Source: Ectocarpus siliculosus (taxonomy: Eukaryota; Sar; Phaeophyceae; Ectocarpales; Ectocarpaceae). From it: a stretch of DNA of 28,493 nucleotides. Positions 7,408 through 24,608 of the stretch are shown in pieces. Below the pieces are notes generated by a model. The model saw nothing but the letters and a program-made list of their open reading frames with translations, did not search any database and had not been told where the DNA came from. Position 1 is the first letter of the stretch; each line of letters begins with the position of its first letter. The DNA is taken from assembly GCA_000310025.1 (NCBI GenBank), contig FN649728.1:6110864-6139356 (forward strand), read 5' to 3'. Made by a program: the position numbers and the translations under genes.

Positions 7408-8289
7408 ATGATTCAGCCGGCGATGGTTCGAATGGCAGCTAGGCGAGCTGTGGTCGTATGCGGAGCCAGAACAGCAACCGCACCAACGGCAGGTAAGAGG
7501 TGGGGGTTGGCTATTGTTCGAAGGGGCAACCGCCTCTTCTTTTTTTTTTGCATCAGCTGCGCGATTGATTGTTCTCTTGCGGCCAAGGTAGAAGAAAGCA
7601 CACCAGCGGAAGGCTGGAATATTCGAACATAGACGTTGTTTATGTGGTACTCTGGTAGACAATGGCGAGGCTGCGCCACAGGTCGAGAGATTTAGTTGTT
7701 GTTGTCGGCAGAGTATTTGTTGTAGTGGTGTCCACTGCTGTGGTGAGCGGTTGTACATACTTGCAAAAAGCTAAATAAGCTGTCGTCTGCTGCTGCTGCA
7801 GCAAGTAATGTTGTCTCCGACAGCAGTTCTTTTTCAGATGCTATTTCCTGAGTCTACTTGTAAACCTATGATGATGTGCGTCTGTGCGGTGCGTAGTCTA
7901 TGCAATCTCGGTGTTCGGGACTACATACTGTAGACTGCTGTGCAGGGGCTGGTCTTTGCCAAGGGGTGGGGGCGCGAGAGCGTGTGCGGTATATGTCTCC
8001 CTCTTTTGGCAAAGCCTGCTACAGCAGTACCAGTGTTTCGTCTATGCCGCAAGGCAGTTTGCGTCTGGTCTGTTCCATCGCCGGCGTTTCTCTGGACACG
8101 ATGCCACTGCTACCGCTTGTTGCTGCTCAAAATGATCATGACCCTACCCTATTTACAAATGCCTAATGCTTTCGGCCTCTGCACTTCCTTTTACAGCCCG
8201 CCGACAGCAGGAGCGATGCTGCGGAGGGGGCACACGATGATGCCGTACAGCAGTCAAACGCGTTTTTTTTTCGACGTACGCATGTGCAC

Positions 8290-8320
<31 letters not shown>

Positions 8321-11300
8321 ATTCTTGGATATCTAGATATTTGCTGCGGAATGGATAAATAGGGCGAATGTCAGGCCGATAACGTTGGTGGCGTAAAACT
8401 GCTGCTGCGCTGTGAATGCCTGTCTTCGTGTTTTTGTTCTTTCTCGATGAACCCATCTACAGCAGCACATATCGTTGCGGTGCGCGTGTGTACAGCAGCA
8501 AGTGCTTTAGGCAAAAACCGAGATCGTTTTTTTCAGCATGGCTGCACGGGTCTGTCTGTGTGTACAGCAGTATTTATGTGCTTTATTTGTTTGCTGACTT
8601 TCCCTCCCGCAGGGCTGAGAGCGGCGAAAGCGGGAGCGGGGTGGTTGCCTCATCGACGACAGCAGGAGCAGCATCAGCATCAGCAGCAACAATGGTTTTC
8701 AGCGGAGCCGGCGCCGTTCAGCAAAAAGAGCGTCATGTTTGTGTGCAAGCGGAACAGCTGCAGATCCCAGGTGATCGAACGTGCACTTTTGCAGCGCGCA
8801 CGGAAGTATTACGATGTACTTGTGGTCGATCACGACTTTCTGTCTTGTGTGTTGCGAGCCACGTTTTGTGGAAACAGACGCTCACCCCCGGTTGGTGCCT
8901 TCATTCTACAGTACTATTCCATGTGTACAGATGGCGCCCGCACTTAAGAACCTACCTGTTAAGAACATGAGGCTAAAAAAATCCGAAACTCATGAACATG
9001 AGCGTATTTTAGTGGTCCCCGCTGAGAACCTTACACTAAAACCTATATGATGGCCATTCGCAGCCTCAACAGGCAACTAAGAACCCCAGCCTCACGCAAA
9101 TTAAGATGTTCCTAAGTGCGGGCGCCATCTGTACTGCACGTTCATCATATCCATATGCATACTACTCCGCAAGGTATCTTCGAAAGGGTTGGTAAATAGT
9201 GTACTGCTGCAGTACCCCCTGCCTGTGGGTCCAACTGCAAGGGCCGTTGGCCGCTCTTCGTTTTGTGGTGGCTAAGGGGGCGGCGTCTTAGTCTGTCTTG
9301 CGCATGTGCTCTCTGTAGAGCAGCGTCAGCAGCGTCACGCTCTTCTCGGTTGTGTTCGTTCAATTTTTTTATTTGCCGTGGTTGTCTGGCGGAGGAAAAT
9401 CAAAAGTCAACAATTGTTGTTGTTGTTGTTGTCTTCACATCAAAAACCGTTCCGACCTCTCTCTACCCAGTACCTTCATATGTCCGTACTGATCCAACAC
9501 TTGACGCGGTCGATTCCAGTGGTCACAGGCTAACGTACCCTAAAAAGGTACACTCAAATAAACTGGCCCCGAGGGGTCCGCAAGTCAATAGAAATAAACG
9601 ACAGATATTGTGGAGTCCTCCGCTCCCTCTGCGCGCTATGCGAGGTAACAACTGAGACGAGGAGTCAGCATCACGGGCCAGAGAGAAAGAGGTACACCCC
9701 CTTGGTTCAATCTTGGTGCTTCACACGCAAGCAGAGACACGGCCATCTGACACAGAAAAAGAGAGAAAAAAAGAGCGACAACGAGAACAAAGAGAAAAAG
9801 AGAAAAAAATAAAAGGAAACAGGAAGAAAAGAGAAAAGAAAACGATGTTGTAGTCTAATAACCGTGAAACGCGCCGTTGTTCGGGAAGATTAAGTAAGAT
9901 GGTTGGCAGGCCCCTTGGACGAAAATATTATATGGTTGGTGGGCCCCTTCGACAACCCCTTGGGCGAAAATATTAGATGGTTGTGGGCCCCTTCGACGGC
10001 CCCTTGGGCGAAAATATTAGATGGTTGGCGTTGCCGGGACGGAAAAGTTCACCCTCGAAGCAAGTGTTTTTTTTTTTCCAATACATAGGACGAACAAAAC
10101 ACACCGAAAACACACCACGTCCGTCTCTAGTACAGGTATTGGAAGAGTCTGGCATAGATTGTTGTTGTTGTTTTCTTCACATTAAACTCGTGTCAGTTGC
10201 TAATCCCAAAATCTAGCAAAGACTCGGCCCGTGGTCACAAAAATGCTAGAGCCATCTATTTATTAGATTTACAATGAGTTAATCAAATCTTGCTTGTGGT
10301 TTTTTGTAGTTTTGTAGTTTTCTAGTTTTTGTCTTCACTACAAATCAACCCTCACAGCACTCGTGCCGTTTACTCCAACCCGTGGGCACACAGAAGAGCC
10401 CATCTCTACCCTCCCCTCCTGCGGTACTTCGCCTTCGATTTTTAATGCTAGAAGAGTTCAGCACTCTCTTCCGTCTGTGTTCACACGAACTAGCGCTATC
10501 CACTAGGCCAGGAGCGGAAGCGAGAGAAAAACTCACTTTGCAAGAAAAGCTCGCTTACGCCGGGGTTCGAACCCCTGACCTGATCTCTAGAAAGTTTGGA
10601 GGAAACCAACTAGACCACCGGGGCGACCGGTTGCATACGTTTGTGTGTTTTGTGTCTGCACTATTAGCACCGACCGCGCCAACCGTTTGACCAAGGAAAA
10701 GGACGACAGCAGTGTGTGTGCGCGCGCGGCTGACCAATGAAAAGGACGTCAGAGTGTGTGTTGGCGTGGGACAGATAGATATTGATTGGACTTCTTTTTT
10801 AGTGTCGCGTATGCATACATACGCGCATCGAGAAAATATATTTACAGAAAGTACGTGCAGGTAGGGTGAGCAGGCTTGGGTAAGGTATACATCGTTCAGG
10901 ATGCTTCACGAGTTGTATCCAGGATCTTGTGTCGATGTGGTAAACGGTGGAAAATTCCCCGCTCCTTGTCGGTTCTTGGTTTGTGGATCATGTCGTATCG
11001 CTCCGCGAATACCTACTGCTGTTTTCTCGTTCTCGGCAAGATGAGATGGTTGGTAGGCGGGGCCCCCTGAACGAAAGGTGCAACCTCCCAAGGCTTCACA
11101 GAGTGCAGCGGTGGCTGGTTTGAATCCTTTCGTCCTTTCGCCATATGCGTTGGGAACGCTGGTGCAGCCACTCGAGGTTCTTCCGCCTCTCACCTCTGGG
11201 CCCCTTTTTTTGCGGAGAATTTTCGCGGAGAGCAAGACAAACTAGAGGAAGAGAGGCCTGGTTGCGTTAGATACCACACCCCCAGGACCGATTTTTTCAA

Positions 11301-14300
11301 AGCAGAAAAAGCGGTGACGGTGCTGAAAATGGTGCCGTTGGCACTGCTGTCTCGTCAAGAGGCTTGCCGAAAGCGCATCATTTGATGGCGGCATCATGTT
11401 CGTCGTGGAGATATCGGGCTTTGGAAATCGGTCCCTCGGGTGTGGTATCTTACGTCATGCAACCTACGGTAGGTCTGTGAACAGCGGCACTCGCTCGGGA
11501 ATCGATCCATCTGCTAACCTCAGTACAGCGCAGTAGGAGCCCACCCAAATACCAAGTAAAACCGATGGTAGGCATCATGTGGGTGCCTGTTCCACGGACA
11601 AAAGCTCGTGAGGGGCAGCTGTACTATCCTCAGAAGCAAGACCTAAGATGAAAAGTTTTTATCGCTGGGGGGCGATGGTGATTCACTGCAGTTGTCGCTC
11701 CGACATAGAGGGTGGCGTGATAAGGCCCTCGACCCTCTTGTATCGGCCCCCGGAATAAGAGGGTACCCGGGTACCCAACAATACCATGTAAGCCGATCGA
11801 ATCCTTGACAACCGACTTAAGAGCCCCCTCTAATAAGGCCCCCTATTATTTTCGGAGCCACCACGACTGCTGTGAATGAACGATGTATATTTTGCTCTGA
11901 AACGTGTTTCTGTCTTTGGGAGGGGAGAGGAGGGGGGGGGGGGGGGGGGCCACCCCCGTCCCCGGGGTTCCTTAACCCTTCCGGGGGCTCGCGGGGCTTA
12001 TTTGTGACGTAACGGACATACGACGTATTCTTACCAGATGGCCGAGGGGGGGGCGAAGCACCTCGCCAGGGATGACCTTGAGATCTGGAGCTCGGGGCTG
12101 GAGGGGTCCAGGGTGCACCCGACGGCCACGGTGAGCAAGCGAGCGAGCGAGCGATGGACGATGATGCACGTGGTCAGCAAGACGTGTGTGTGTGTTTTTT
12201 ATTGTTAGCATCGACCGCGCTAACCGGCTGACCAACGAAATGACGTCAGTCTCAGTGCGGTTGAAAACACAAAACACTCATGTATAAATGCCATTAACTG
12301 GGACCCCGTGACGGGGCGGCATGGGGGAGACTAACCTATTCTCCGGATCGAAGACAGAAACGGCAGCAACAGAAGACAAGCGTTTGTGTTGTGTATTTGT
12401 TGGTATGGACCGCGCTAACCGACTGACCAATGAAAAGACGTCAGTCTCGGTGCGGTTGAAAACGCAAAATGCTTCCAAGAGACCATGATCTGGGACTCCA
12501 TGAGGGGCTGTCATGGGGGAGGCTATATAGATGTGTGTGAGCGCGTCTCGGGCCTGATTTCAGCTGGAAAAATGGAGATAGACATTGCAAGTTTTCCCTC
12601 AATCAAACCTCGCTTGCTAAAAAGACTCCCAATTCTCGCCATAGCTTATGTGATTGTGTCTCCATTGAAGCATCTGTTGTATGCATGTTTTCTCACCTGA
12701 AGGGTACATCAGTTTTTCTTTTTTGTTCCTCCCTCGCTCACTGGTCGGCCTGTCGATGATTCTGATGTGTCTGTGTGTGTTTCTTTTCATTGCTTTTCCC
12801 GACACGTCTCGCAGGCCGTGATGCGACGGTTTGAATACAAACAGGAAATATGTAGTTGGTCTGCATCGTTGTGTCAACTTGCTAGCATTGGTTTCGCTGC
12901 TTGCTTTTCCCGACACGTGTCGCAGGCGGTGATGCAGGAAGTCGGCGTTGACATCACCAGCCACACCTCCGACTACCTCCACGACTTCACGCCGACCCAC
13001 TTCGATGCGGTCGTGTCCATGTGCGGGTGAGCTCACCGGCGACGACACTGCCACCTTCTTTTTTTATTTTTTATGGTGCATTTGAGGCTGATTCTGATAC
13101 ACCCGGATTCCTCATCCAAAAAACATCAATCCAGGATCGGCCTGACACAACGATTCCATCTCTATCCATAGAAAAGAGTCTACGATAGATTAGCAAATAA
13201 TTCATAGCGTCGGCGGAAACTACCTGTATTTCTACGGTTTCCCGATCAGCACACAGCACACAGCGATATTGTATTTTCTTGTTCACGCCTACTAGGCTAA
13301 TCTCGCCGCACCCGCGTTATTGTGTCACCTCAGACATGGATTGAGAATTGAGCTCGATGATCCTGGCTTGCTTGCTATCACTACGGCTGCTGTGTTCGTT
13401 CAACCGTCTTTCGGCGACAATAGAAAAGAACCAGATACTAGTCTCCTACGTTTGGTTTGGCGCCTGAACGCTACCAGTGTATGTAGCAGAGGTGTTTTTC
13501 GACACAAGGATACCGTAAGTTGCATAGGATATCACACCCCCTGGACCGGTTTTCGAAGCTCGACTAGTCGGCAGGAAAAACAGCAGTGACGGTGCCGGAA
13601 ATGGCGGGAGGCGTTGGAAGTGTCTCGTCGAGATCTTTGCGAAAAATTAATCGTTTGATTTCGGTATCCTCTTGGTCGTGGAAAAATGTACTCTAGAAAT
13701 TTTGAATTTCGGTCCAGAGGGTGGGTGTGGTGTCTTACGCAACCTAATCGTGTCGGGCGAGAAACCGCCCACCCAAGAGAGATATTGCTGCTGTGCGTGT
13801 ACATACAACGTCTCTACTTCCCTGTATTCCCCCTCCCAACCCCTTCCACCGGCACAAATGACATTCCCCCGTCCTTGTTGTGTTTCCTGAATAAGTCGGC
13901 TGTACCCCCCCATGGTCCTGTCCCCCCGACCCCCCCCCCTAGGTGTGGGACCAGCCTGCCCGAGCCGTGGCAGAAGGCGGGGGTGTTCGAGGACTGGCAG
14001 CTGGACGATCCGGATGGGAAGCCGCTGGAGACCTTCCGCAGGGTGCGCGCGGAGATCAAGGACCACGTGGAAGCGTGAGTTGTTGCTGTGGTTGTCGTTG
14101 TTGTTGTCTTCACATTGAGAACCGTTCCGATCTCCGCTCAGTACCTTCTAATGTCCGTACAATAATAGTACAACTGACGACGCGGACGCTTTCCGTGGTC
14201 ACAAGACAACTGCCCCGAATGCGGGGGGTGCACCTTTCTTGAAGAAACGAGTGGGCAATGGTTGCTGCAGATGTAATAGCGCCCGCGCTTCAGGACCACT

Positions 14301-16643
14301 CTCTGGCGTTGGCCGGTTGTTGCAATAGTTTCTCTACAGTATTGTAGGGGAACTACGAAATGGCCGCACTATAGGTTTCAGTGTCGGGCTCACAAATGGT
14401 GCTCTGAAATTCTGTTTTTCGGGGCTGTATCAACTTCTTACATGGCCTCCAAGCGCGGTCGCGAACTGAATACGCGTAGGGCCAAGGGTGAAATGGAGGG
14501 AGGTTTGTCGTTTTTTTGGTCGGGAGCGGTTTTGGCATTTATTGATACACGGGGCGTGATTTTTGGTGGGTGGGGAGGGGTGTCTCTTGTTTGCTCTCCT
14601 CCTCTTCCCTCCCGGGCTCACGTTGTGCTCCTTAAAAGTCATGTATGGTAAAAAATTTTGTCTTTGCTCAACTCTCAAAAGCTTGTGTCTCACTCTCGAA
14701 ACGTCTATAGATAGTGGTGGTGGAGTGTTTGTTGGATGTCCTTCCAACTGAACCTCTCGTGCTGACCTCTCAAATCTCTTGCCACTTCAGTCTCGAACGA
14801 TCCTCTTGTAGCGATAAAACGTGCTCAATGCTCGATTTCTTGACGACGAAGAGAGCTCCTTAGCCTTAAACAGAGAGCTCCTTAGCCTTACCCAGAGAGC
14901 TCCTTAGCCTTCACCAGAGAGCTCATTAGCCTTAGCCAGAGAGCTCCTTAGCCTTACCCAGAGAGCTCCTTAGCCTTCACCAGAGAGCTCATTAGCCTTA
15001 GCCAGAGAGCTCATTAGCCTTAACCAGAGAGCTCCTTAGCCTTAACCAGAGAGCTCCTTAGCCTTAAACAGAGAGCTCCTTAGCCTTAAACAGAGAGCTC
15101 CTTAGCCTTAACCAGCTTGGTTACGTTTTCGGAAAGCTCTCGGACGAGACGGTGCTGACACCGCAATGCTCGGCACCGCCGCTGAGTTGCCCTGGGCTGT
15201 AAAGATCGGTCGTCTGGGGGTCAGTATCTTTGTGCAACCTCCAATACCCTCTCTGAGCACAACATCGGTAGGCCCTACGAGTACGCGTGAAAGGTTTCGA
15301 CACACAATTCTGCGGCCAAGACTACATGTAAAACAGGGCTGGCTCAATGCGGGTTGAATCGAAGTCCGTCGGTTCACTAGACTTGTGTGCGCGAACAAAC
15401 GATGCTTTAAGCCCCGCGTACTGCTACTTGAAAGAGGTGCCGGAGACCGACCACACGAGTGAGGGTGTGCGATTGGTTGGAGATCGATTGCTCGACAACC
15501 ATTGGTTGGAGGTCGATGATTACTCCACAACCATTGGTTGGAGGTCGATTGCTCCACATCCGAAGAGAGGGGCGAAAGCTGACCCGGACACACGCAAGGA
15601 GAGCTTTCACATCTCGACGAGGATTGCACATGTTTCCGAAGCCACCAGCCACCCTTGTGCGGGGCGACCGCATCTACACGTGTGCGATCGAATTTTTTGG
15701 GCTCAATTGCTCCACAGCCTTGTAGTCGAGAGGGTAACCAGACCGACACGTGCAAGGAAATGCAACTCTCTCTCTCTCTCTCTCGACGCCGACGAGATAA
15801 CATCTTTCCAGAACGAAGCCACCCCTCTTCTCGGCATTGGCAAGCCTCAAGGTTGGGGAGAGAACGAGATTTTTTTCAACCATCGATACCACAGCTGCTG
15901 TGAGTTGGCCCTGGCGCACTTTTACGGCGCTTCCGTCCCGCGGCTTGAGGAGACAGAAGTAGGAAGATCGGGGGGTGCTGGGAAGAGGTGGATTTTTTTT
16001 TTCCTTTTTCGCACCGAAATCGAAGAAGCAGCGATGAGAACCACCGTGGTGTGTTGCCGGCGCCGACAACTTTTGCGCTCCGCACGCACGCATCCTCGCA
16101 TGCTTTCTTTGGCACTGCTGTTTCGTTAGAACAAACGGTGTGTCTTGGAGCTCTTTTTTTGTTCTCGCTGGGAATCTGTTTTTGGGTTCGCTTTTTTTTT
16201 GTTTTCTCTGCCGTCCTTTGTTGACTTCTACCCATGCTCTTCCGTTGTGGTTAAAAAAATGTTGTTTTTTCAAAAAAAATTAACAGACTCGTGAAACAGC
16301 TGGACACGACTCCTACAGCAACCGAACGACCAACAGCGACGCCTTCATCACCCCAAACCGAAACAAGACGGCCTCGTGCTGCCACGACAACCCAACGCCG
16401 CCGGAAAGCCGGGGTCATGGTCGCAGCGTGAGGCCTTTTCTCCCTTGCGCCCGACCACCGCTGCCACGCCTCTGACAACAATATCGCCTCTTGCGTGAAC
16501 ACCTTTCCGGGTGCCGCAACCGCCGCCGCCGCCGCCGCTTCCGTCCGTCCATGACGTAAAGACTGGTCGACAAGATCAAGAGCGGGAAAGAGACGACGCA
16601 GGAGGAGAGGGACGCGATGGCCAAGGGGCCTAACGAGTGTTGA
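7408..16643 (+). CDS. arsC: Arsenate reductase, low-molecular-weight-PTPase fold, Synechocystis (glutaredoxin-dependent) type, six exons
   Basis: The enzyme reduces arsenate to arsenite with glutathione/glutaredoxin. Exons are 7408-7492, 8613-8770, 12038-12130, 12926-13026, 13943-14074 and 16562-16643. All introns are GT..AG and phases match at every junction (1, 0, 0, 2, 2), giving 216 residues. Signatures are the P-loop VMFVCKRNSCRSQ then MAEG at the exon 2/3 join, GLEGSRVHPTA, VGVDITSHTS, MCGCG, FEDWQLDDPDG and FRRVRAEIK. Cys73, Cys145 and Cys147 are offset by exactly 65 from the Cys8/Cys80/Cys82 triad I recall for the cyanobacterial enzyme, so all catalytic cysteines are present. The 65-residue extension starts Arg/Ala-rich (MIQPAMVRMAARRA), then becomes Gln/His-rich; it looks like a mitochondrial presequence, and no clear signal peptide is seen. 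The ATG at 7408 is chosen because upstream in-frame sequence is microsatellite. Intron 2 is 3.27 kb. The last exon has an alternative (see 16287-16431). Confidence 0.9.
8285..8314. repeat. (CAG)n microsatellite
   Basis: About eight to nine CAG units in intron 1 of the arsenate reductase gene, in a stretch where TACAGCAG also recurs as an isolated word. Confidence 0.9.
8928..9131. mobile_element. TA-flanked MITE, 204 bp
   Basis: The left end CAGATGGCGCCCGCACTTAA and the reverse complement of the right end CAGATGGCGCCCGCACTTAG match at 19 of 20 positions, and the match continues through GAAC. Flanking TA dinucleotides sit at 8926-8927 and 9132-9133, suggesting a Tc1/mariner-type MITE. It lies about 160 bp into intron 2 of the arsenate reductase gene and codes for nothing. 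Confidence 0.85.
9414..9532 (-). repeat. SINE-like repeat with (AAC)n 3' tail, copy 1
   Basis: Read on the minus strand it runs from TGTGACCACTGG through TACGGACAT, GAAGGTACTG and CGGAACGGTT to GTGAAGACAACAACAACAAC. The copy at 14079-14205 follows the same order of words. It lies in an intron, antisense to the host gene. Confidence 0.65.
9758..9845. repeat. Purine (A/G)-rich tract
   Basis: Almost uninterrupted AGA/AAAG sequence of about 90 bp in intron 2 of the arsenate reductase gene. Confidence 0.85.
9899..10029. repeat. Degenerate tandem repeat, three units of about 32-46 bp
   Basis: Each unit begins ATGGTTG, continues GGGCCCCTT(C/G)GAC and ends GGCGAAAATATTA. A related single unit (AGATGGTTGGTAGGCGGGG) appears near 11042, so the module is also dispersed. 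Confidence 0.8.
10159..10240 (-). repeat. SINE-like repeat, short copy 2
   Basis: On the minus strand it shows TTGTGACCACGGG near the start and TAATGTGAAGAAAACAACAA at the tail, the same terminal words as the copies at 9414-9532 and 14079-14205. The body is shortened. Confidence 0.5.
10300..10632 (-). mobile_element. tRNA-derived SINE candidate with A-box and B-box head
   Basis: On the minus strand the head has an A-box-like TGGTCTAGTTGG (about 10619-10608) and an exact B-box core GGTTCGAACCCC (about 10574-10563). The tRNA fold is degenerate: the T-stem and D-stem do not pair properly, so a functional tRNA is unlikely. A second A-box-like TGGCCTAGTGG follows at about 10511. The body carries the words shared with 4331-4430, and the 3' end (GTAGTGAAGACAAAAAC) resembles the tails of the other SINE-like copies. 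It lies in intron 2 of the arsenate reductase gene, antisense to it. Confidence 0.6.
10655..10760. repeat. Dispersed repeat family E, diverged copy
   Basis: Contains ATTAGCACCGACCGCGCCAA and GCTGACCAATGAAAAGGACG, matching the core of the copies at 12190-12335, 12385-12530 and 25848-25925. Confidence 0.55.
11260..11464. mobile_element. MITE family M1, copy B (205 bp)
   Basis: The inverted ends are the best preserved of the family: left GGTTGCGT..AGATACCACACCC..GGACCGATTT, right (reverse complement) GGTTGCATGACGTAAGATACCACACCC-type followed by GGGACCGATTT and CAAAGC. Terminal repeats are about 50 bp with indels. Intron 2 of the arsenate reductase gene. Confidence 0.8.
11932..11949. repeat. Poly-G run of 18 followed by C/G-rich sequence
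   Basis: Homopolymer of 18 G about 90 bp upstream of exon 3 of the arsenate reductase gene. It is either an intronic feature or a site of uncertain base calls; sequence after it is normal again by about 12000. Confidence 0.9.
12190..12530. repeat. Dispersed repeat family E, two tandem copies 200 bp apart
   Basis: Both copies carry GACCGCGCTAACCG, CTGACCAA(C/T)GAAA, GACGTCAGTCTC(A/G)GTGCGG and TTGAAAAC, then GGGAC(C/T)CC(G/A)TGA and CATGGGGGAG. They fill intron 3 (12131-12925) of the arsenate reductase gene. The reverse complement (GGTTAGCGCGGTCGATGC) resembles a tRNA A-box, but no B-box was found. Confidence 0.7.
12790..12935 (+). repeat. Duplicated splice-acceptor/exon-start segment
   Basis: A 35-bp segment occurs at 12790-12824 and again at 12901-12935 with two substitutions: TTGCTTTTCCCGACACGT, one changed base, TCGCAGGC, one changed base, GTGATGC. 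The second copy is the real 3' end of intron 3 plus the first 10 bases of exon 4. The first copy is followed by CGACGG instead of the exon body, so it is a decoy acceptor 111 bp upstream. Confidence 0.85.
13088..13260. repeat. Dispersed repeat family F, copy 1
   Basis: Shares ATTCCATCTCTATCCATAG, a GAGTC..AGGATA-like block, AGCAA and ACGGTTTCCCGATCAGC with 26160-26290 in the same order. Lies in intron 4 of the arsenate reductase gene. Confidence 0.45.
13519..13744. mobile_element. MITE family M1, copy C (226 bp)
   Basis: Left end GTTGCATAGGATATCACACC, right end (reverse complement) GGTTGCGTAAGACACCACAC. Inner arms share CTGGACCG. The flanks TAA (13516-13518) and TAA (13745-13747) would fit a 3-bp target duplication of PIF/Harbinger type. 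Intron 4 of the arsenate reductase gene. Confidence 0.75.
14079..14205 (-). repeat. SINE-like repeat with (AAC)n tail, copy 3
   Basis: Minus-strand order TTGTGACCACGG, TACGGACATTAGAAGGTACTG, GGAACGGTTCTC, ATGTGAAGACAACAACAAC, matching 9414-9532. Its tail abuts the donor of exon 5 of the arsenate reductase gene. Confidence 0.65.
14851..15114. repeat. 22-bp tandem repeat, 12 units
   Basis: Consensus GAGAGCTCCTTAGCCTTA plus a four-base variable end. Twelve contiguous full units with no indels. Units 2-4 and 5-7 are identical as a 66-bp block, showing higher-order duplication. Lies in intron 5 of the arsenate reductase gene. Confidence 0.98.
15471..15558. repeat. Tandem repeat, three units of about 30 bp
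   Basis: Unit core ATTGGTTGGAGGTCGATTGC followed by TC(C/G)ACA. Intron 5 of the arsenate reductase gene. Confidence 0.85.
15765..15783. repeat. (CT)n microsatellite
   Basis: About nine CT units in intron 5 of the arsenate reductase gene. Confidence 0.9.
16287..16431 (+). CDS. arsC: Possible cassette or alternative last exon of the arsenate reductase gene
   Basis: After a T-rich stretch and TTAACAG acceptor, the sequence is open in the phase left by exon 5 and reads A-LVKQLDTTPTATERP, which continues the family's C-terminal helix as well as the downstream exon does. The frame stops at 16429-16431. However, GTGAGG at 16428 gives a donor in the same phase (GC/GT), making 16287-16427 a symmetric 141-bp cassette that could splice on to 16562. 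Beyond the first ten residues the peptide is Thr/Pro/Arg-rich with no family match, so it may be spurious. Confidence 0.4.
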
Positions 16644-19255: not shown

Positions 19256-22200
19256 TCAAAACGGGGGTTGCGCGGCCCACTTGGCCACGTCTTTGCGACT
19301 CCCGAACCGGAACGAGCCAACGTGGATGCTCCGCAGGGAGGGCGGCCACTCCAGCCCCCGCACGTGGGACACCGGGTACCGCGCGAAGAAGGAGAGCCGC
19401 CTCAGGCCGCGCGGCAGCGCCAGCCCCTGCAGCGAGTGCGAGAAGGCCCAGCCGAAGTGCAGCTCCCTCAGCGTCGCCGGCAGCATCAGAGCGGAGTCGC
19501 CGCCGCCGCCGCTGCCCAAGCCGTCGAAGTCGCCGATGCCGCTCTCCATCGGCTGGTCGAAGCAGTTCCCGAACCGGAGCTCTTCCAGGCCCGGGGGCCA
19601 CCTCACGCCCGCCACGGGGCGGTCGAACTTCGACTCCGCAACGAAGACGAGGCGCTTCAGCCGCTCCGGTAGGCGGGCGGCTTCGAGCTCGCGGTTGAAC
19701 GCCGCGCCGAGCCGCAGCTCTTCTAGGCCGCCGGGGAGGAGGGGCGGTGGGACGGGGGCGGCGTCCAAGTCGGACGGCTGCGGCTGCGGCTGCGGCTGCT
19801 GCTGTTGCTGTCGGTGACTGCTGCTCCCTCCTCCTCGCCCTTGTTGTTGTTGTTGTTGTTGTTGTCCCTGTTGTGCTTGGTTTTCTTCCTCTTGGGGGTT
19901 GTTGTTGTTGTTGTTGTTGTTGCTGCTGCTGCTGCTGTTGGCGTGGTCGAGGGGGTAGTTGAACGCGGACCCGAGGATCAATACCCTCAGGCTCGCCGGC
20001 AGGGAGACCGTGTCCAGCGCAGAGTTGAAGCCGTCGCCGGCGTCCAGGTACTCGAGCCTCTTCGGCAACGACAAGCAGCAAGAAGGCCGCCGCTGGCGGC
20101 GGCTCCCCCCGCCCCCCAAAGAACCCGCGAATAGCGCATCACCCCACCTGCAGGACAACTCGAGGCGCCGGAGCTCCGCCGGCCAGCGCACGGACGACAC
20201 GAAGGAGAAGGATTGACCGATCACAAGCTTCTCGAGGCCGTCCGGCAGCTCGCCGCCGGCCAGCGGGTGGTTGTAGCCGTCGCCGAGAACGAGCTCCTTC
20301 AGCCCGGTGGGGAGCAGGAACGGCGGCGGCGGCGAAGCAGCAGTAGCAGCAGCAGCAGCAGTAGAAGGAAGCGGTGGAGTAGTGCCAGCGCCGCCCGTTA
20401 GCGCGTTCGTCGGTCCGCCGCCCCCGCCGGTGCCGCCGCCGGTGTCGGCGGTGCCGGCGGCGCGGGCACGGTAGCTAGAGCCGATGCCGGGGGAAGGGAA
20501 CGCCTGGTTGAACTTGTCCCCGAACGTCAGCGTCCGCAGCCTCTCCGGCCAAACCACGTCGCCTATCGCCTGCGGAAACGTTTGATCGGCATCAAAAGCA
20601 AAAAAAGCTGAATCGTTGCGGCGGTGAGGGTATAGCAGTGCGTGCAACGAAGAAGTACCGTCACGAAAGGTTTCGTTGCCGCCAAGCAATAAAAAGGCTT
20701 GACTTTTGGCGGTGCGGTTCAGCAGCACGCGCGAAAACGATGAGGGGTCAAGTCAAAAGCCCCGAGCGCTTGCGGTACGTATCAGCAGAGAAAAAAACAA
20801 AATGTACAACAAGCATTGTGGCGGCTTACGCCGCCACGCGCAATGGAGCGAGTCCCAAGGTACATGGGGGCGGTCGTGTGTGGATCGTGGCAGGTTAACT
20901 CGACGTTATGTGTCGTAGTATGCCCGTATAGTGCGCATGTCTATAGCGTGATAACACGTAGACGATGGCATGTAAACGTCAGGATCGACGGTGTCACAAC
21001 TGTATGCTGTGAGAAGGTCTCCTGGAAGGATGTCAAGGACTTGTGCGTTAATGGTGTCTATGGTAGCGTTGGTTGACGAAAGGATGGCTCCAGCCTTGAA
21101 CTCAGTCGGGTCGGCGTCGAGAATGTCCGGATACACGAAATTGATCAATTCTTCAAAATAGTCTGTGTTGTCAAGGACGAACCGGTCAGAGGCTATGTTT
21201 GGCATGCTATGAACGTATGCCAATGGCACGGCATCGACGCCGTCGTCTGTTGTAACATGCGGTTGGGTACCAACACCGATATTTCGGACGAACGCAGCGT
21301 ACGCTGCGTCCTCTCGATCGCGCTGCGATATGGAAAGACGCACACGTCGTACATGTTTCCAAAGCGGACTGGAAATGATGGACGCATTAATTGTTTCCGC
21401 GGGCCCGCCATGTTTGACGACAGGCCCTATCTGGCGTAGATCACCGCTTAGCAAGATAGGATTTCCTCCCATGATCATGTTATCGCCCATAAGATCTTGG
21501 AGTGTAAGATTAAGAGCTTCGACAGAAAAACGATGGCTCATTGGGATTTCGTCCCAAACAATAAGGTCACACTTCCGTAATACTTCTGCTCGTTGCGACT
21601 CAGCGGAGATATTGCGCGTTGCACACCGCTGACATTCTTTTCATCCAGTGGTAGTTTGAACATGGAGTGCGCAGTCAACCCACCAGTTGGAGACCTGCGA
21701 TGCCCGTACTGGCAACACAAAGGACTAATTTACTGAGTGATGGTAGGTGGGCGCATAGTACGCTCTCCGTCTTACCCGTCCCAGCAGGCGCGTCTATCAT
21801 GAATACGTTAGACGATCCTGATGACACGCTGTTAACCACGCTATCGTAAACATGACGTTGCTCGACGGTGAGGTTTCGGAGATGCTCGGCAACAAACATG
21901 CGCATTTGCTCCGGATTGAACACGTGCTTGAAACACAACTACTGTGTGTCTAGATGGATTACGGCAGGCAGTCCAACGATAGCGTTCGTTCGTCCATGGT
22001 GCTGTAACCCGAGATCGATTTCGCGAAGGGCGGCGTTATCGGTATCCAGATCGGTCATGGACATGCGCAAATCTGACGTGAAGTCCTTATTGAAATGCTC
22101 CCACAGAAGGTTGGCAGGGGCCCCGTCAAGAATGAGCGTAACAAATAGCTGGCGCAACTGTCTACCCGTGTTGAAAATAATGGCCTCCTCTAGGCATACT

Positions 22201-24471
22201 TTGTACTCTTCGTCGTGTTTGATTATACCCATGGCCCTAGCAGCGTCCTGAAAGGTGTCATACACAATGTCTTCGTCAGTCCTTAACTGCTCAAATGATC
22301 TTGCGGGCTCGTGGTGTAGAAGTAAGCGCAGGTAAAAAACGTCACCTTTATCACGGGACATTGCCGACACACGTGCGACATGCTTTTCAGATGAATGTGG
22401 CGTCACAAAATTGCGGTATGTATCTCTAAAGTATACGCATTTTGTGCGCGCCTTCTCTCTTTTGACTATGTACATCTCGTTGTAGTCGAGATACGTAAGC
22501 ATGTTGAATTCGATGTCAGCGGGTCTGCCGAAGTAGAGCAGGAGGTCAGATGTTGAACGAACCTCATGCACCGCTCGTTGACCGAACCCCGATGGATTCC
22601 GAAAAAAGATATTCATACATATGGATTCCGAAAAAAGATGTTCATATGAGAACAGAGCAGTCGCATACGTGCAAATAGGTATGTGCGACACACGTGTAAA
22701 TAGGTATAATAGGTATTATTGGGTGTGACAGAGAGAGATAGAGAGAGACAGAAATAGAGAGACAAAAAACAAAGGAGAGAGTGAGAAGGCAGGGAAAGAC
22801 ACACAGACACACAAAGAGACACAGAGACGGAGAGAGAAATGCAGAGAGAGACAGAGAGAGAAACGGGGAAAAAAAAAGAAAAAAGTTGTACCGCCCATTC
22901 CGACTCTGCTTCCGACTCTGATTCCGAGAGAGGAGAGAGCGAAAAAGCGCCGAAGAGAGAGAGAGAGAGACCGGAAGAGAAAAAAGAAGGCAGAGACCAA
23001 TGGAATGGTATTGGAGAGGACCGTAGAGCTCATCGGACCGAAGAACTGCCCTCCGAGCGACAAAATTGCGAAAACTGCAAAATGCGAAATGCTGGCCTGT
23101 GAGCGCTCGAACGGTCGGGACTGCACTCTGAAACCAAGTGATTAAGCGTGGTGGCCTGAGAGCGTTCGAGAGAACGATCCCTGGCCCGCAGAAAATGCTG
23201 CGATTCTAGGAAAAAGATAAGCGAAGTAATTGTTATGGGCACACATTTGGCGTGGTGTGCGCGGGCGATCTTGTCGAAAAGAGGATCTCCAAAGAAGAGG
23301 ATCTCCGAAAACCGGATCTCCAATAAGAGAATGTCCGAAAACCGGATCTCCAAAAAATCGTATCTCCGAAAAAGAGGATCTCCAAAAAATCGTATTTCCA
23401 AAAAAAGCGTATCTCCGAAAAAAACATGTCCGAAAGCTCCTTTACCTGATTGAACCTCCCGCCGAAAACGACCTCCCTCAGGCCTTTCGGAAACACGACC
23501 CCGTTCCCGTCCCCGTACCCCAGGGACTGGTTGAAGTACTCCGAGAGCGTGAGCTTCTCGAGGGACGCCGGCCACTCCACCCCGTCCAGCGGCTGGTTGA
23601 ACACGCCCCCCAGGTGGACCTCCCGCAGGCGTGGCGGCAGCCCGATGCCACCTCCTCCCCTCAAGGGCTTGTCGAAGCTCGTGCCGAAGCGGACGACCTC
23701 GAGGGACGGTGGCCAGGTGTCCTTAGCCCCCACCAGGTTCCGGTTCCACGTGGCCCCGAACTTGAGCCGCTTGAGCGCGGGCGGCCACCGGACGCGCCCG
23801 GGCCCCAGGGACTCGTTGAACCAGTAGCCGAAGGTCAACGCCTCCAGGGTCTCCGGGAACTCCACCGCGTTCACCTTCTCGTCGAACTTTGCCCCGAAGT
23901 GCAGCTCTTTCACCCCGCGCGGCCAACCGAAGCCCGCTTCGAGCAGCTCCAGCGCCGGTAGCTGCCAGATGATGCCGACGGCCCTGACGAGAGGCACTCT
24001 TGTGGTAGCCCTGGCCGGGGTGGGCGTGGCAGGGAGCGTAGAAGCTGCAGCAGCAGGGGGCGCAGCTGTACCTGTGGCAGGGCCCCGAATACTGCTAGCG
24101 GCGGTAGACCCAGGAGGAGCGACAACAACCCTGGTTGCTGCGCCTCCGCTGCTGCTACTCCTGCCGTGCCACGAAAACTTGTGCTGCGCGCCGCCACCGC
24201 CGCCGGTGGTTCTGCTGCCGACACAGCCGCTCCCGCCTGCTCCGGAAGCCGCCGCCGCCGCCCGCTTGCTGGGCCCCGCCCCGCTGCCGCCTCTGGCGCC
24301 GTCACCTTGAGCGCCGGAGTGACCCCCGCTGCCGGCCGTTTCGGCGGAGAATCTTCTTCTGTCGACGCGCCACAGGGTGCGGGGAGTCCCGTCCGTCACC
24401 CTTACCCTACGGGCCACCTGACGCCTAGACTCGCGGCAGACGTACAGGCACGAGCACTCCAAGGAGCGGAG
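19256..24471 (-). CDS. FNIP-type leucine-rich repeat protein, two exons
   Basis: Exon 1 runs from about 24471 to 23446 and exon 2 from 20569 to 19256 (stop). The donor CAG/GTAAAG and acceptor CCGCAG/GCG are both phase 0, so FGGRFNQ joins AIGDVVWPERL and the repeat continues unbroken. About 19 repeats of 22-25 residues follow the pattern P..L..L.FG..FN..L....W, as in LEKLTLSEYFNQSL and LRTLTFGDKFNQAF. This is the FNIP repeat known from Dictyostelium and some other protists; no function is established here. The N-terminal 160 residues are Gly/Ala/Ser-rich and disordered. A poly-Asn/Gln insertion encoded by a GTT/CTG microsatellite (minus-strand AAC/CAG) sits in mid-protein. Position 24462 is TTG and no ATG is in frame, so the true 5' end lies upstream; the TACCAG acceptor at 24472 is one option, or an exon was missed. 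Length is about 780 codons. Confidence 0.75.
19836..19938. repeat. In-frame trinucleotide repeats coding poly-Gln/poly-Asn in the FNIP gene
   Basis: Runs of GTT and CTG on the plus strand (AAC/CAA/CAG in the gene) encode Gln and Asn homopolymers between two repeat units, a likely length-variable linker. Confidence 0.9.
20818..20837. repeat. Perfect hairpin near the truncated helicase end
   Basis: GTGGCGGC and GCCGCCAC form an 8-bp stem with a TTAC loop, with CATTG/CAATG further out. It sits about 70 bp beyond the 3' end of the helicase relic, where a Helitron would have its terminal hairpin, but no CTRR end was seen after it. Confidence 0.7.
20906..22691 (-). pseudogene. Decayed Helitron-type PIF1-like helicase in the FNIP gene intron
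   Basis: Minus-strand reading begins with the linker region typical of Helitron proteins (LTYLDYNEMYIVKREK, GDVFYLRLLLHHEPARSFEQ, DTFQDAARAMGI). It continues with PIF1 motifs: Walker A APAGTGKT, ASTGIA, Walker B DEIPM, GDLRQIGPV and SQRDRED. Three lesions are visible: an in-frame TAG at 21939-21941, a frameshift near 21680 and another near 21610. The reading ends at a stop after the NATIDTINAQVLDILPGD region, so the C-terminal helicase motifs are missing. No Rep nuclease domain was found upstream, where a purine microsatellite begins. It is therefore a dead fragment. The strand is the same as the host gene, and the helicase lies wholly within its 20570-23445 intron. Confidence 0.85.
22728..22995. 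repeat. GA-rich purine tract, about 270 bp
   Basis: Degenerate GAGAGA/ACAGAG repeats interrupted by a short mixed segment at about 22888-22925. Lies upstream (in transcript sense) of the helicase relic in the FNIP gene intron. Confidence 0.85.
23281..23438. repeat. Degenerate 16-bp tandem repeat, about ten units
   Basis: Unit (G)GATCTCC(A/G)AAAAA followed by a few variable bases. It begins within about ten bases of the FNIP exon 1 donor, so it occupies the 5' end of that intron. Confidence 0.85.
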
Positions 24472-24608
24472 CTGGTACGGCGGTGGTGGTGGCGGGGAGT
24501 TGTGGGGTAGGGCGGGATTTTAGCGATCGGTCTAAAAAGCCTACGCACGTTGTGTACAAAACCTGGCGTAGCGGCAAGTGAATAGGCACGTCCCAAGGAG
24601 TGGAGCTG
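24425..24608 (-). repeat. Duplicated exon-start-like segment upstream of the FNIP gene
   Basis: On the minus strand CAG/CTCCGCTCCTTGGAG.. (from 24474) and CAG/CTCCACTCCTTGGGA.. (about 24610) are followed by GTGCCT and TGCCGC at similar distances. A third relative at about 25754-25826 shares TGCCGCGAGYCTAGRCG with the first and CACGTGCG..GGCTTTTT with the second. The first copy overlaps the presumed start of FNIP exon 1. Confidence 0.6.

Follow-up and report, generated by a model that had tools for sequence, protein, structure and literature searches.

The arsenate reductase ArsC of Synechocystis sp. PCC 6803 is the product of the gene slr0946 (PMC4284471) and, as far as the available portions of two accounts go, receives its electrons from glutathione and glutaredoxin (PMC4284471, PMC6205960). 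The available text of the first of these, a review of 2014, describes this type of reductase, ArsC-Syn, as exclusive to cyanobacteria (PMC4284471). Bacterial-type arsC genes in eukaryotic algae are reported in the accessible parts of two further papers: the gene neighbourhoods of the green algae Chromochloris, Coccomyxa and Klebsormidium are likened to the Synechocystis arsBHC operon, with green-algal ArsC proteins nearer to various bacterial homologues than to one another (PMC7826186), and among the red algae arsB and arsC are confined to the Galdieriales, by way of horizontal gene transfer (HGT) (PMC9812998). These algal genes adjoin arsB (and arsH) or were gained by HGT, and in the accessible text they are likened by description, with the ArsC family left unstated (PMC7826186, PMC9812998). 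An ArsC transcript of Aureococcus anophagefferens provides an arsenate reductase in another stramenopile, the available text stating neither its family nor its targeting (PMC4109616), and a gene survey of raphidophytes carries an abbreviation for arsenate reductase in a figure legend, in the available part likewise with no family stated (PMC6685483).

The titles and abstract beginnings of the literature searched name no gene for an arsenate reductase from brown algae, and a mention in the body of a text is possible. Brown algae can accumulate considerable amounts of arsenic, and in such algae much of it is organic. The available text of one study gives an arsenic content of 81 mg/kg dry mass for Saccharina latissima (PMC11009773). 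We analysed a window of 28,493 nt, that is, the whole stretch of DNA under study, from the brown alga Ectocarpus siliculosus; it corresponds to positions 6110864-6139356 of contig C3 in a genome of 189 Mb and 492 contigs. The window holds a real and probably functional gene for an enzyme whose type is known but whose host is unexpected, and its occurrence in a brown alga makes it an immediate candidate for the initial step of arsenic conversion. The encoded protein resembles the Synechocystis enzyme in its ungapped core (75 identities in 129 residues against ArsC chain 2myu_A), its redox cysteines and its P-loop, and differs in being encoded by a nuclear gene of six exons, with a leader of about 65 residues and a C-terminal tail of about 20. 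It is an exception to the cyanobacteria-only statement in the accessible part of the 2014 review (PMC4284471), and may not be the first such exception, an arsBHC-like cluster being known from green algae (PMC7826186, available text).

Exon structure and coding signal

Joining the six plus-strand exons, rebuilt from the window, yields 651 nt that encode 216 residues without an internal stop. All five introns are of the GT-AG type and the phases agree across the junctions, the running length modulo 3 after exons 1 to 5 being 1, 0, 0, 2 and 2; this confirms the original prediction that six exons in matching phases rebuild a complete ArsC. Exon 1 (7408..7492) encodes residues 1-28 plus one base, the first part of the leader, and begins at the first ATG that its open frame offers after the stop before 7081. 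Exon 2 (8613..8770) supplies the remaining leader and, by alignment of the core, the start of ArsC with Cys73 and the P-loop CKRNSCR, followed by exon 3 (12038..12130), which covers core residues 82-112 between GT-AG introns with phase 0 on either side. Exon 4 (12926..13026) continues the core and has Cys145 at its end, exon 5 (13943..14074) provides Cys147 and the stretch EDWQLDDP, and exon 6 (16562..16643) the end of the core helix and the C-terminal tail up to Cys216, followed by the stop TGA. In the joined protein cysteines thus occupy positions 18, 73, 78, 145, 147 and 216. The claim that the gene is nuclear is supported by the five introns and by the length of the contig, which is 6.1 Mb or more.

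Searching the genome with the protein matched exons 5, 4 and 3 (E 2.9e-24, 1.5e-16 and 4.4e-14), all of them inside the window; no second arsC copy was found in the 189 Mb by this search, which recovered three of the six exons. As the query was nearly identical to the window's own protein, the result speaks to copy number and not to homology.

The codon statistics derive from a small training set of 404 codons from elsewhere in the genome, taken from an ArsM-like exon and a gene for a fucoxanthin-chlorophyll protein, and the background was drawn from the arsC introns themselves, where open stretches of equal length overlap, so that the counts are not independent trials. On this scale the score of exon 3 is reached by none of 2995 intronic open stretches, that of exon 4 by none of 2813, that of exon 5 by none of 1982 and that of exon 6, which lies outside the training set, by none of 3507. 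For the short core portion of exon 2 the score is not decisive, being reached by 191 of 4856 stretches, and the leader codons are intron-like, with 170 of 955 intronic stretches scoring equally high.

The donor of exon 1, CAG/GTAAGA, agrees with the consensus at 8/9 positions and ranks at the top among all 1738 GTs of the window. First exons were searched for by combining ATGs with donors of at least 7/9 and acceptors of at least 12/17 pyrimidines ending in C/TAG, thresholds of our own choosing, of which the pyrimidine one would miss the acceptors of exons 3, 4 and 6 (10, 11 and 10 of 17). The exon 2 acceptor (13/17 pyrimidines) is the sole one to pass among the 27 acceptors open to the core, and three first-exon models pass, namely the originally predicted start and two internal ATGs, all within exon 1. 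The acceptor of exon 6 reads AAG, with 10/17 pyrimidines. A rival terminal exon at 16287..16431 on the plus strand (LVKQLDTTPT...), in phase behind a CAG, was rejected on its codons, which look non-coding (a score reached by 1024 of 1790 intronic stretches).

The acceptor region of exon 4 is duplicated, 12899-12951 having a near-copy 111 nt upstream at 12788-12840, with identity at 33 of the first 37 positions and at 36 of 53 overall. Use of the AG in the upstream copy would add 37 in-frame codons to exon 4; this possible alternative extension (12815..12925, plus strand) is open, and its codons are intron-like, 1569 of 2486 intronic stretches scoring equally high.

Family assignment, distribution and origin

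Residues 67-192 match the NCBIfam model for glutathione/glutaredoxin arsenate reductases, TIGR02689, over its entire length (1-126 of 126) at 183.4 bits against a cut-off of 157.6 (E 1.7e-54), which bears out the assignment to the Synechocystis type. The closest structures are 2l17, 2l18, 2l19, 2myn, 2myp, 2myt and 2myu, which we take to be Synechocystis sp. PCC 6803 ArsC. Residues 67-195 align with residues 2-130 of 2myu_A at equal length (E 4.9e-48), and the alignments to 2l17 and 2l19 are ungapped, in agreement with the claim of a core free of internal gain or loss; 2myu_A and 2l19 themselves differ at some positions, probably through engineering. By the 2myu_A numbering, Cys73, Cys145 and Cys147 are Cys8, Cys80 and Cys82, so the displacement by exactly 65 that had been predicted holds for all three.

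Across 131 cyanobacterial sequences (duplicates included, many picked for similarity to the window protein, and the divergent L136, below the family cut-off, omitted) there are 52 columns conserved at 95% or more, of which the window protein keeps 46 and six non-cyanobacterial ArsC sequences keep 25-33; the three redox cysteine columns are invariant in all 131. With the other ArsC proteins of the low-molecular-weight phosphatase fold, including the pI258 type (TIGR02691), the window protein shares the fold family, the nucleophilic cysteine and roughly 30-44% identity in the sequences listed. It differs from them in lying far below their curated cut-offs and in having the second cysteine of the CGC pair, which is not conserved in most of the six sequences compared, only one of these being annotated as thioredoxin-type. 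Both models of the pI258-type thioredoxin-linked family are missed, with 82.9 bits against 174.3 for TIGR02691 and 100.9 against 215 for NF010053. The Pfam LMWPc model also matches the protein.

A pattern scan of 84,980 prokaryotic species, one genome per species, retrieved 280 relatives, and the best 80 of these are all cyanobacterial. Of 194 genomes sampled from the phylum to which an Oscillatoria genome belongs, 63 have some match to TIGR02689 and 49 exceed its cut-off; none of 14 control genomes does so, 9 of them matching at lower scores. Among 72,556 plasmid records 560 match, a single one of them above 60% identity (Oscillatoria, 62.8%), and the next highest identity is 42.7% among 50 of the 560 records taken at even steps down the ranking. 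Carriage by viruses and phages was considered and rejected: two pattern matches in viral contigs are not relatives, and 10 of 50,697 phage records match, all below 60% identity (44.1% being the highest of five records listed).

For phylogenetic analysis 139 sequences were found, one repeat was dropped, and the remaining 138 plus the window sequence were thinned at 88% identity to 66. All trees comprise prokaryotic sequences and the window sequence, with two actinobacterial ArsC sequences, both encoded beside a thioredoxin reductase gene, as outgroup. A quick tree of the 66 separated the window and cyanobacterial sequences from this outgroup with support 84, with long outgroup branches and without resolving the position of the window; for this reason five divergent sequences (L136, L138-L141) were removed, leaving 61 sequences and 127 columns for a careful tree. 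There the same split has support 100/100. Within that group the window sequence stands beside two others at a weak 89/73, in an analysis whose bootstrap had not settled, and the AU test does not reject a topology in which the cyanobacterial sequences form one group that excludes the window (p-AU 0.291). The window branch, at 1.17, is the longest end branch of the tree.

On these alignments the trees support the family, but neither a donor nor a date. The original prediction envisaged a gene captured from a cyanobacterium or from an ancestor of the plastid: the grouping with cyanobacterial sequences stands, while a place inside the cyanobacteria lacks the backing of the AU test, and the window branch is the longest. 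The tree that had been proposed as a check, run here on prokaryotic sequences, does not put the protein outside with the other ArsC proteins, and its AU value is compatible both with nesting among the cyanobacteria and with a position beside them. We infer that the gene arose by transfer of a cyanobacterial-type gene. The restriction of red-algal arsC to the Galdieriales, as given in the accessible part of the source (PMC9812998), is a weak argument against descent by way of the red alga that gave rise to the plastid.

The leader and its predicted address

Residues 1-45 of the leader contain seven arginines, one lysine and no aspartate or glutamate (net charge +8), a charge profile matched by 30 of 1975 intronic open stretches and by 6 of the window's 207 frames that start with ATG, the leader's own starts included. 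The best 10-residue and 19-residue hydropathies are 1.49 and 0.93, without a long hydrophobic core. In ochrophyte plastid proteins a hydrophobic signal peptide precedes the transit peptide. The best helical moment in the first 40 residues is matched by 1515 of 2000 shuffles. The earlier description of the leader as mitochondrial-looking rather than plastidic fits the basic, acid-free composition and the lack of a long hydrophobic core; the helical moment is no better than that of shuffles. A mitochondrial address is plausible as the best guess from the leader's composition. If the leader works as proposed, a cyanobacterial-type enzyme would have been relocated to the mitochondrion.

Directly upstream of exon 2, within intron 1, lies a further plus-strand open frame (8447..8612) with an ATG at 8447 and a best 19-residue hydropathy of 2.14, against 0.93 for the leader. 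Speculatively, a transcription start within intron 1 could give the protein a different, hydrophobic N-terminus and another address.

Arsenic conversion and alternative readings

The best explanation, to which we give a probability of about 0.7, is that the window carries a real nuclear, functional-looking arsenate reductase of the Synechocystis type, plausibly mitochondrial by its leader, which would supply arsenite for methylation. The three cysteines of ArsC act in a thiol relay. By analogy with Synechocystis, activity, relay and electron donor would be as follows: arsenate entering with phosphate would be attacked by the nucleophile Cys73, the disulfide would reside on Cys145 and Cys147, and glutathione together with glutaredoxin would regenerate the enzyme and release arsenite. 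The arsenite could then be methylated by an ArsM on the way to organoarsenicals, and the basic leader would direct the enzyme to the mitochondrion and so to a site at which arsenate could take the place of phosphate. Both the localisation and the route from arsenate through arsenite to methylation are putative.

A candidate for the methylation step is a long ArsM-like exon on contig C26 (4452454-4453164, L146), which matches solved arsenite methyltransferases in the PDB (best E 7.3e-70) and scores 187.6 bits against the bacterial family model, below its cut-off of 263. Acr3 and ArsH gave no match in an exon-by-exon genome search, a method that can miss genes, so that, in difference from the Synechocystis arsBHC operon, such a setting is either absent from this genome or was missed. 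The genome has three SBF-domain matches (71.7, 33.5 and 26.3 bits). One further LMWPc exon lies elsewhere on contig C3; the same search missed the ArsC exons, which shows its limit.

Several other readings have to be weighed against this one. Prokaryotic contamination or an assembly artefact might be suspected in view of the high similarity of the protein to bacterial ones, and we regard it as extremely improbable for a gene with five GT-AG introns that carry repeats, on a contig of at least 6.1 Mb, and with codon usage in exons 3-6 resembling that of two other genes of the genome. The protein might alternatively have ceased to be an arsenate reductase and serve as a low-molecular-weight phosphatase or a mitochondrial assembly factor on the same fold. 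The LMWPc match, a weak PDB match (26 bits) to the LMWPc-domain protein mt-SAF26 and the long tree branch speak for this, and some change of function is possible on account of that branch; the retention of the three redox cysteines, the P-loop and 46 of the 52 conserved columns, together with a score above the TIGR02689 equivalog cut-off, makes it unlikely.

As to origin, the gene could have come with the red-algal plastid ancestor, by endosymbiotic transfer, and not independently from a cyanobacterium. We regard this as a real possibility, yet on balance a doubtful one: the family is cyanobacterial in type, the host has fucoxanthin-chlorophyll proteins and the AU result allows a position beside the cyanobacteria as well as inside them, and against this stands the presence of arsC among red algae only in the Galdieriales, by HGT, in the available text of the source (PMC9812998). 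A comparable degree of reserve applies to the reading in which the enzyme is the same and is cytosolic or plastid-directed, its start lying elsewhere, e.g. at the ATG in intron 1, or the leader being inactive as a mitochondrial signal. The open frame upstream of exon 2 with its hydrophobic stretch, the intron-like leader codons and the unexceptional helical moment fit this; the exon 1 donor, the best of the window, is joined to the exon 2 acceptor in all threshold-passing first-exon models (spliced starts being those scored), and the predicted leader lacks any long hydrophobic core, both of which argue against it.

Returning to the mitochondrial arsenate reductase, we advance only tentatively the wider proposal that a glutaredoxin-coupled enzyme of this kind guards ATP synthesis in ochrophyte mitochondria and starts organoarsenical synthesis, a cyanobacterial enzyme having been re-addressed to an organelle of non-cyanobacterial descent.

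Some further features of the genome and the window may be recorded. Chlorophyll-binding (light-harvesting) matches number 87 genome-wide, with clusters on contigs C92, C232, C488 and C16 and many equal scores; one of these proteins matches FCP17 of PDB 9ygv at 408.7 bits over 198 residues, which points to a photosynthetic ochrophyte. A search for tRNAs in the window found none. Intron 5 contains a 22-bp tandem array at 14850-15115 (AGAGAGCTCCTTAGCCTTAACC, 12.1 copies), and the introns share two repeat pairs, 12202-12274 with 12397-12469 and 9416-9459 with 14091-14134, the unit at 14091-14134 beginning at the 17th base of intron 5. Downstream of the gene, two minus-strand frames with FNIP repeats (19256-20752 and 23233-24519) flank minus-strand fragments of a PIF1-like helicase (20909-21640 and 21678-21938), perhaps reflecting insertion of a mobile element into an FNIP gene cluster.
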